Made by a program: the position numbers and the translations under genes. Under the pieces are notes generated by a model. The model saw only the letters and a list, made by a program, of their open reading frames with translations. It ran no database searches and was not told where the DNA came from. Below are positions 41,633-43,659 of a stretch of DNA of 55,722 bases, in pieces (position 1 is the stretch's first letter; each line of letters starts with the position of its first letter). Source of the stretch: an uncultured Acidobacteriia bacterium (GTDB lineage: Bacteria > Acidobacteriota > Terriglobia > Bryobacterales > Bryobacteraceae); NCBI GenBank assembly GCA_903929755.1, contig CAIYVZ010000053.1, forward strand, positions 1 through 55,722, in the 5' to 3' direction.

Positions 41633-42232
41633 TTATTTCCGAACGAGGGACAGGAACTCGTCGCGGGTTTCTTTGTTCTCCCGGAAGGCCCCCAGCATAG
41701 CGGAGGTGACGGTGGAAGACGCCTGCTTTTCTACGCCCCGCATCATCATGCAGAAGTGCTGGGCTTCCACCACAACTCCGACGCCGAGAGGGTCCAGATT
41801 GTCCTGAATGCACTGAGCAACCTGCTGCGTCAGCCGTTCCTGAATCTGGAGCCGACGGGCAAATGCGTTCACGATCCGGGGCAGTTTTGAGAGCCCAATT
41901 ACTTTATTTTTAGCCAGATACGCCACGTGCATCTTGCCGAAGAAGGGTAACATGTGGTGTTCGCACATGCTGAAGAACTCGATGTCCTTCACAATCACCA
42001 TCTCGTCATACTTGACTTCAAAAATAGCTTTGTTGACGATCCTGGCGACGTCGGTATGGTAGCCGCTGGTGAGGAAGCGCATGGCTTTTTCAACGCGGTA
42101 CGGGGTCTGCAGAAGGCCTTCTCGTTTCGGGTCTTCACCAAGCGCGTCCAGCATCCCCGAAATGAATGGAGCAATGGGTTTGTCGGCTTCTTTTGGTTCC
42201 AGAATTTTCACTTCGGCGCGTTTACGACTCAT
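41633..42232 (-). CDS. folE: GTP cyclohydrolase I
   Basis: FolE converts GTP to dihydroneopterin triphosphate for folate and pterin/deazapurine pathways. The 199-residue product has [19 protein letters not shown], the zinc segment [18 protein letters not shown] with Cys and His, [21 protein letters not shown] and [13 protein letters not shown] with the second zinc Cys. Start ATG 42232 lies within the end of the upstream queD gene (11-nt overlap). The longer open frame to 42370 is not needed. It is the last gene of a three-gene unit with the two PTPS-like genes. Confidence 0.95.
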
Positions 42233-42671
42233 GTTGGGTACGTCCCTGACCTTCAACTTGACAGATGTTTCGTTCCGTTTCCCAGATGCGAATCTTTTCA
42301 AGTTTCGGCCCCGCGGCGCTAAACCATTCATTCCAGACGGCACGCAGGCGGTCATCCACGACCGTGGCAAGGTTCTCGGTGGTTGGATTGCCGGTCAGGA
42401 ACTCCGCAACCTCTTTGTTGAGGTTGCGATAGCGGAAGGGCGCGAGAATCTGCTGTTCACAGAGAGCGTCCAGAAGGTTCAGATCGATCGACCGGCCAGT
42501 CACGGGGTCTACCTTGCCTGCAACCGTCACTTCCACCTCGTAGTTATGGCCGTGACCGTTTGGATTGTTGCACTTACCGTAGAGAGCGCGGTTCGCTTCG
42601 TCCGACAAGCCAGGGGCGTGGAGCCGGTGGGCCGCGAAAAAGCCATATTTACGGCTCAGGTGGACCGTCAT
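42222..42671 (-). CDS. queD: 6-pyruvoyl-tetrahydropterin synthase/QueD-like, copy 1 (Cys present, Asp-His absent)
   Basis: This is a PTPS/QueD-family protein of 149 residues, expected to act on dihydroneopterin triphosphate from the adjacent FolE. Zinc ligands His15, His40 and His42 are present (AAHRL, GHGHNY), as is the proton-relay Cys34 in [14 protein letters not shown]. The Glu in IWETE is kept. The Asp-His pair of the family is missing: in an ungapped alignment to the neighbouring copy the positions read Arg-Tyr (FRYRNLN). It begins ATGA-overlapped with the upstream copy and overlaps folE by 11 nt. Confidence 0.85.
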
Positions 42672-43084
42672 GCCTCGCCCCGATATTCCACAAAGAGCTC
42701 GCTGGTCTCATGAACCTGCACGGAGAAGAGACGCGCCCGGCCTGTCGCATCAATGTGGGCTTCAATGCGCTTCCACATATCGATGGCCATGTTTTCGACC
42801 GTCGGGACCGTATTGGCGAAGGAATCTACCTCCACATTCAGCAAACGGTGGTCGTAGACCTTCAGAATCCGGTCTTCCAGAATGTCCTTTAAGTGCTTCA
42901 GATCGAGGATCATACCGGTGACGGGATCGGGTTCGCCCTCAATCGCCACCTGCACGATGTAGTTGTGCCCGTGGCTGTGGGGGTTCGATGCCGCCCCGTA
43001 AACGCGCAAGTTTTCTTCGTCGCTCAACTGGGGCGAACGACAAATGTGAGACGCGGAAAATTCGACTTTCTTGGAAATAATCAT
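42668..43084 (-). CDS. 6-pyruvoyl-tetrahydropterin synthase/QueD-like, copy 2 (Asp-His present, Cys absent)
   Basis: This 138-residue paralogue begins MIISKKVEFSASH. Zinc ligands are His13, His38 and His40. The Asp-His pair is present (VYDHRLLN), as is the Glu in VHETSE. The catalytic Cys position is Ala (YGAASNPHSHGHNY). From the HGHNY motif to LLN the two copies align without gaps over 46 residues, with complementary losses. The ATG at 43084 sits at the domain start; the open frame upstream to 43189 has no family content. It is divergent from the TlpA-like gene by 62 bp and is first in the operon. Copies 1 and 2 may form one mixed enzyme. Confidence 0.85.
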   Translation of the reverse strand: MIISKKVEFSASHICRSPQLSDEENLRVYGAASNPHSHGHNYIVQVAIEGEPDPVTGMILDLKHLKDILEDRILKVYDHRLLNVEVDSFANTVPTVENMAIDMWKRIEAHIDATGRARLFSVQVHETSELFVEYRGEA

Positions 43085-43146: not shown

Positions 43147-43659
43147 ATGAAACCGGATCGCATACTCCACTTCGCCCTGCTCGCGTCACTGGCAGTTTTC
43201 TGTTTCGCGCTCTATACGTCCCTGCACGAGACCATTGTGAACGCTGGAGATTCAGCCCCGGATTTCGCCATCACCACCGACGCCGGCAAGCATGTCACGG
43301 TGAAGGACTTCGGCGGGAAGCTGTTGCTGCTCAACTTCTGGGCCACCTGGTGCCCCCCCTGCATTGAAGAAATTCCTGGCCTGAACGACATGGCGCGGGA
43401 GTTGGGGCCGAAGGGTCTGGTGATTCTCGGCGTCAGCGTGGATAAGGACCCGGAGCTGTACAAGAAGTTCCTGCAGAAAAACCCGCTGGCCTATCCCACG
43501 GCCCGTGACCCGGAACAGACCATCAACTCGCGTTATGGCACGGTGCAGTATCCGGAAAGTTACCTGATCGACCGCACGGGCAAGGTGATCGAGAAATACA
43601 TCTCGGTGCAGCCGTGGAACTCGCCGCAGATGTTGCAGCATATTTCGTCGCTGCTCTAG
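43147..43659 (+). CDS. Membrane-anchored TlpA/ResA-like thioredoxin
   Basis: This is a periplasm-facing thiol-disulfide oxidoreductase of 170 residues. One N-terminal helix (ILHFALLASLAVFCFALY) anchors it. The AhpC/TSA-type fold starts at NAGDSAPDF, with active site WATWCPPC (Cys69, Cys72) and the cis-Pro region VQYPESYLIDRTG. It resembles proteins that reduce apocytochrome c or take part in cytochrome maturation. It lies 7 nt before the GlcD-like gene and is probably co-transcribed. Confidence 0.9.
   Translation: MKPDRILHFALLASLAVFCFALYTSLHETIVNAGDSAPDFAITTDAGKHVTVKDFGGKLLLLNFWATWCPPCIEEIPGLNDMARELGPKGLVILGVSVDKDPELYKKFLQKNPLAYPTARDPEQTINSRYGTVQYPESYLIDRTGKVIEKYISVQPWNSPQMLQHISSLL

Follow-up and report, generated by a model that had tools for sequence, protein, structure and literature searches.

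We analyze a pair of adjacent PTPS genes in a 55,722-nucleotide contig of an uncultured Acidobacteriia bacterium (the whole stretch of DNA that was analyzed, hereafter “the window”). One paralogue (copy 1, “C-type”) keeps the catalytic cysteine of the family and the other (copy 2, “D-type”) keeps its Asp-His pair. Judging from the sequences, the two copies very probably make up one obligate hetero-oligomeric PTPS of the PTPS-II type, with an active site divided between them; the complex and its activity are what we infer, with good confidence, from how these residues are distributed. Across Acidobacteriota, a phylum of soil bacteria, it is probable that several lineages have split the intersubunit triad of PTPS between paralogues in the same way, with zinc-Cys-Glu on one side and Asp-His on the other, and with an obligate hetero-oligomer, two half-enzymes encoded at a distance from each other, or a single fused chain as the outcome.

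PTPS is described as a dimer of trimers in which each site lies between three neighboring monomers (PMC7546909), and the title of a 1995 article by Burgisser names its catalytic triad as intersubunit. Asp88 and His89 reportedly come from a neighboring subunit and form the triad with Cys42. Under the mechanism that we propose, a homohexameric enzyme with its catalytic triad spread across a subunit contact would have been duplicated long ago, leaving one paralogue with the half-site of zinc, Cys42 and Glu133 and the other with the Asp88-His89 half-site. Contact between a C-type subunit (copy 1) and a D-type subunit (copy 2) would create a working site, sites around the D-type zinc would be dead, and FolE, encoded in the same gene unit, would supply the substrate, dihydroneopterin triphosphate.

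The features of the locus are collected in Table 1. The first-pass annotation had described tandem PTPS paralogues with complementary losses, coupled to each other by an ATGA and overlapping folE, and this description is borne out: both genes lie where it had placed them, on the minus strand, and direct reading shows that the copies overlap by 4 bases and that the end of copy 1 runs 11 bases into folE, the ATG of which is at 42230-42232. In the sense of transcription, copy 2 is upstream, followed by copy 1 and then folE. The folE product, assigned by its TIGR00063 match, is the enzyme that makes dihydroneopterin triphosphate, and a folE match is found at 126 of the 130 loci of the window's class (L004-L053, L064-L143). 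A gene that we named thioredoxin-like by eye (43147-43659, plus strand) diverges from the pair; genes resembling it occupy the same place in up to 100 of 129 loci, by a rough clustering.

Table 1. Coordinates of the PTPS pair, folE and the catalytic residues in the window
Feature	Position	Strand	Details
Copy 2, Asp-His (“D-type”) PTPS paralogue	42668..43084	minus	138 aa; first gene of the unit; Pfam PTPS 111.1 bits
Copy 1, Cys (“C-type”) PTPS paralogue	42222..42671	minus	149 aa; second gene; Pfam PTPS 96.8 bits
folE, GTP cyclohydrolase I	41633..42232	minus	third gene; TIGR00063 259.9 bits, cut-off 181.6
ATGA overlap, copy 2 stop and copy 1 start	42668..42671	minus	read directly
Copy 2 Ala32 (GCA), at the rat Cys42 position	42989..42991	minus	alignments and codon read
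Copy 2 Asp78-His79, rat Asp88-His89, retained	42848..42853	minus	alignments and codons read
Copy 1 Cys34 (TGC), rat Cys42, retained	42570..42572	minus	alignments and codon read
Copy 1 Arg80-Tyr81, replacing rat Asp88-His89	42429..42434	minus	alignments and codons read
Copy 1 Glu131, rat Glu133, retained	42279..42281	minus	alignments

Aligned to positions 23, 42, 48, 50, 88, 89 and 133 of rat PTPS, copy 1 reads H C H H R Y E and copy 2 reads H A H H D H E, with 38% identity between the copies over 140 columns. The full set of Cys42, Asp88 and His89 is thus present in neither single copy and is divided over both, and the zinc histidines at 23, 48 and 50 are present in each. These readings agree with what had been noted at first: a cysteine kept beside Arg-Tyr for Asp-His in copy 1, Asp-His kept beside Ala for the cysteine in copy 2, intact zinc histidines in both, and a 46-residue gapless stretch between the copies from HGHNY to LN. 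The swap is far beyond chance, because it recurs among the 155 pairs described below.

Both copies score above the cut-off of the Pfam PTPS family (PF01242, 22.4 bits), and among solved structures rat PTPS is the closest in sequence to each (E 1.8e-30 for copy 1, 7.8e-35 for copy 2). The QueD part of the original label is not supported, since the scores against NCBIfam TIGR03367 (QueD), 46.5 bits for copy 1 and 64.7 bits for copy 2, are under the cut-off of 89.25 and the pair is nearest rat and human PTPS. PMC5041015 assigns CxxxxxHGH to PTPS-II, CxxxHGH to QueD (PTPS-I) and ExxHGH to PTPS-III. Copy 1 has CNNPNGHGH and copy 2 has Ala for the Cys of this motif; neither CxxxHGH nor ExxHGH occurs in either copy. 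Judged by motif, the window pair is PTPS-II-like, and neither QueD nor PTPS-III. An AlphaFold model of copy 2 (pLDDT 95.0) has TM scores of 0.93-0.95 to human and rat PTPS.

The tandem pair recurs through the genus, family, order and class of the window's genome, which was searched together with 60 relatives. Among the matches listed, two genomes have one PTPS match each and so no pair (G027, G058), and three have no PTPS match (G023, G039, G055); for a few genomes such as G036, the matches listed do not extend to the second copy. In a GTDB genome scan for relatives of copy 2, the best 80 of 552 were taken, and all 80 titles name Acidobacteriota. The class set consists of 50 tandem loci (the pairs of G046, G049, G051 and G052 were found and left out of these 50), the best 80 of the 552 GTDB relatives, and the window, giving 130 loci that have both copies and 106 distinct pairs.

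Each copy holds on to its own half of the triad throughout this set, with C-type Cys42 in 106 of 106 distinct pairs and D-type Asp88-His89 likewise in 106 of 106. The losses are conserved in relatives that carry the pair, though to a graded extent: the D-type cysteine is gone in 104 of 106 pairs, kept only in L052 and L053 from other families of the class, and the loss of the C-type Asp-His is partly conserved, being seen in 54 of the 105 readable copies (51 keep it, and one, L096, is cut off). At the cysteine position, the 105 distinct D-type sequences have A (68), E (16), S (8), G (6), D (3), N (2) or C (2), a count that excludes the QueD-like copy L060; varied residues also stand in for Asp88 and His89 among the C-type copies. 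Against an obligate pair, 50 of the 106 distinct pairs have lost the D-type cysteine yet have Cys, Asp and His intact in the C-type copy, and such C-type copies might function alone.

Some loci in this class show further irregularities. The C-type copy of L090 (3912-4240) is broken between GHGHN and LN, by assembly error or genuine loss, with its D-type copy and folE readable. At L055 (G012:C8:1212-1616), an extra PTPS match contains an in-frame TAA in a genome that also carries the pair. No open frame with two HGHN motifs was found in the window and the loci up to L143; L089 had been considered as a fusion within the class and was dropped, as it is merely a long open frame.

We searched 297 genomes of the phylum, the window's genome included, and obtained strong matches in 67; loci were read from 55 of the other 66, and the 11 left out all belong to family f8. 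In f8 (19 of 30 genomes read), the D-type copy is intact in 19 of 19, retaining Cys and Glu133, and the C-type copy is altered in 8 of 19. Against an obligate pair, 11 of the 19 f8 pairs read intact in both copies, as do 4 of 4 pairs in f23. The two pairs of genus g32, in the window's own family, have Asn for the D-type cysteine and an intact C-type copy. All 17 relatives with one strong match read HCHHDHE, i.e., intact, although a weaker second copy below threshold is possible in these genomes, as in G216, where an adjacent pair has the same complementary split. A contrary case is G124, in which the D-like copy has lost both halves and its partner is intact.

In two further settings the division is found outside tandem genes. 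Six loci read (L146-L151), in f20 and one f13 genome, have two PTPS domains in one open frame, and folE adjoins all six. In all five f20 proteins read, domain 1 keeps Asp-His and has Cys42 replaced by Arg or His and Glu133 by Thr or Ala; domain 2 keeps Cys and Glu133, and its Asp-His is replaced by Gln-Gly or Ser-Gly. These five are drawn from the six full-length f20 fusions, G417 being left out. Of the 9 f20 genomes, 8 have a fusion match, which is full-length in six and truncated at a contig end in two, and the f13 fusion (L149) has the same split for Cys and His. One domain of a model of the f20 fusion (pLDDT 88.1, pTM 0.84; five models ranging from 70.7 to 88.1; alignment of five sequences) matches human PTPS (TM of target 0.92).

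The other setting is the order of G115 (19 genomes), where the two copies are on different contigs. The D-type copy, found in 16 genomes, lacks Cys42 and Glu133, has Tyr for the zinc ligand His48 and keeps Asp-His in 16 of 16; the C-type copy keeps Cys, the zinc ligands and Glu133 where readable, and its His89 is changed in 16 of 18 readable cases. Five pairs of this order are in the set of 144 introduced below, and beyond them eight more are complementary. Asp-His is present in the C-type copies of G429 and G430, the latter cut before the cysteine, and G423 is cut before position 88. Against an obligate pair, no D-type partner turned up in three genomes whose C-type copy has an altered His89: G425 (83% complete), G426 (96%) and G431 (75%). 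In 18 of the 19 genomes there is an additional copy, which carries a PEPVHGHSW-like motif of the ExxHGH kind (e.g., L260, L241, L234).

Taken over 155 pairs (144 plus 11 further pairs on different contigs), complementary losses occur in 73 (65 + 8): 53 come from the window's class, 6 from fusions, 5 plus 8 from pairs on different contigs, and 1 from G216. Most of the remaining pairs have lost one half or nothing, a few are cut by contig ends, and one is the contrary pair. Loss of the cysteine was seen in none of the readable C-type copies, and Asp-His is kept by the D-type copy in 154 of 155 pairs, the sole loss being that of G124. For the different-contig pairs and L149, the D or C label rests on the residues themselves, as profile scores are near equal or point elsewhere; complementarity within a genome is independent of the label for those pairs. 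The mixed oligomer with a shared active site that had been suggested for the window pair is supported by this evolutionary evidence, in that the same split appears in a fused protein and in pairs on different contigs. Its occurrence in these forms in other families favors a shared active site over two separate partial reactions.

A different explanation, which we consider unlikely, is that copy 1 is the sole catalytic subunit and copy 2 a dead partner that activates or stabilizes it, as in the prozymes of trypanosomatids. Activators that are dead paralogues are known (PMC3663545, PMC5201418); about half of the C-type copies in the class still carry Cys, Asp and His, and the three genomes of one order with a C-type and no D-type copy found (G425, G426, G431) point the same way. 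However, a pure scaffold would not need Asp88-His89, which the D-type copy has kept in all pairs except that of G124 while mostly losing its cysteine, and which is still kept in D-type lineages that are even without a zinc ligand and Glu133; copy 1 of the window, moreover, is without both residues.

In a tree built without the four catalytic columns, 57 D-type copies form one group (SH-aLRT 93), with L149 domain 1 outside it on a long branch. In a smaller, more careful tree, a D-type group again holds (94/92), now lacking the D-type copies from the G115 order; the C-type copies from that order fall within the intact single copies (97/99). By fewest changes on the tree of 130 selected rows, with L149 domain 1 left out of both groups, the D-type copies lost Cys 4 times and Asp-His once, and the C-type copies lost Cys 0 times and Asp-His 15 times (Fisher test on 4/1 versus 0/15, p 0.001); on the careful tree the corresponding counts are 4 and 0 for D-type and 0 and 6 for C-type. 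These change counts are rough, as the rows were selected, the alignment is short and many forks are open. Relaxed and partly non-functional duplicates, whose residue losses are decay without functional meaning, would account for the many different residues that replace Asp88 and His89 in C-type copies, but decay strikes us as barely credible given that the retained residues are near invariant over deep divergence, that loss is one-sided by copy on the 130-row tree, and that intact residues are found in all 17 relatives that have a single strong match.

Sites conserved in intact enzymes also divide similarly between the copies in the four lineages compared (f20 is represented by 3 rows and the G115 order by 4 rows per side). 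Asn137 is retained in C-type and missing from D-type copies in all four. Nearly every C-type copy has Arg24, which most D-type copies have lost (only half of them in the G115 order); D-type copies also lack Leu25, that order excepted; and Lys76 is kept in D-type and missing from C-type copies, the reverse being true of the G115 order. The partition is broadly as would be expected of two half-sites that meet at a subunit contact.

What the pair makes is a separate matter. The window's genome has HPPK and QueC matches, no FolB match, and a third PTPS copy on another contig (C153, L054) with GKCENVHGHNY, a CExxHGH motif. In PMC5041015, CExxHGH is reported as a hybrid serving folate and queuosine, and L054 is likely such a hybrid, which would account for the missing FolB match. 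FolB is present in 18 of 18 relatives from family f3; among the matches listed, 17 of these genomes have exactly two for PTPS, and in the 13 of these two-match genomes that were read, the two are the pair. We had considered the pair as a replacement for FolB and dropped this on account of FolB in all 18 of these relatives and the CExxHGH copy in the window's genome. In G022, a third copy (L063, G022:C10) has GKTEPIHGHNW, i.e., ExxHGH without the Cys, as for PTPS-III, and no FolB match was found in that genome.

A QueD role was likewise dropped on motif, on score and on the genomes of genus g21 without a good QueC match: there, QueC is absent or weak in 10 of 11 genomes, yet nearly all have two PTPS copies. 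Together, the co-occurrence with FolB in f3 and the scarcity of QueC in g21 make it unlikely that the pair substitutes for FolB or, in g21, for QueD. In five f3 genomes (G044, G048, G050, G053, G054), a strong QueC match is accompanied by at most two PTPS matches among those listed, and there the pair may have a QueD role.

Two separate enzymes, each acting on dihydroneopterin triphosphate in a partial or new reaction of its own, such as a PTPS-III-like side-chain cleavage for folate, would be in keeping with the lack of a FolB match in the window's genome and with the Glu at the cysteine position in 16 of the 105 distinct D-type sequences, given that in Plasmodium Glu for Cys gives folate-type cleavage (PMC2229834). 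We hold this to be quite improbable, as the motif of the pair is not ExxHGH, the Ala form offers neither acid nor thiol at the cysteine position, the f3 relatives have FolB alongside two PTPS matches, the window's genome has its CExxHGH copy, and two such domains are fused in f20.

For a divided PTPS, a tetrahydropterin product is the default reading. PCD (PF01329) is found in 57 of 61 genomes, which is compatible with a tetrahydropterin role. Supply of biopterin to an aromatic amino acid hydroxylase (PF00351) was rejected, as no such gene was found in the window's genome and only 13 of the 61 genomes have one; G058 has the hydroxylase without the pair, so that hydroxylase and pair are not tied to each other. 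Whether the pair makes 6-pyruvoyl-tetrahydropterin, destined for a tetrahydropterin cofactor, we regard as an evenly balanced call.

When the active sites of a homomer sit at its subunit contacts, duplication can be followed by drift into an obligate heteromer, and to our knowledge few clean series of intermediates are known. Within one phylum, we find genomes with a single intact match, pairs intact in both copies, pairs with loss on one side, pairs with complementary loss, D-type copies that have lost the second zinc site, and fusions. If our reading is true, these stages would be a natural graded series from a homomeric to an irreversibly heteromeric enzyme, and would make the transition testable with small proteins and a known assay. 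In annotation, it may be a mistake to label either copy on its own as a complete PTPS or a 6-carboxytetrahydropterin synthase. Among the papers listed in searches of the open-access literature, with subscription journals outside their scope, none describing a split PTPS was found; the enzyme family is a known one, and it is the recurrence and the fusion that set the divided pair apart as unusual.

Among known systems, urate oxidase, a tandem T-fold protein, resembles the f20 fusion in having two T-fold domains per chain, and is not known to have a zinc site or pterin chemistry; the matches of the fusion model over its full length are weak (TM 0.36-0.45, ~7-10% identity, high rmsd). PTPS-II of rat and human shares the fold, the zinc histidines, Cys42, Asp88-His89 and Glu133 with the two copies combined, the CxxxxxHGH motif with copy 1, and a folE neighbor. 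It differs in being built from six identical monomers, according to PMC7546909 and PMC10767420, whereas in the window the triad residues are split over two paralogues. QueD and PTPS-III belong to the same Pfam family and have the same fold, but their motifs are missing from the pair. In the trypanosomatid deoxyhypusine synthase heterotetramer, as described in PMC3663545, an impaired and a dead paralogue are both essential for growth; that enzyme is of another family and one of its paralogues is dead, whereas in the PTPS pair each copy keeps a defined part of the triad.
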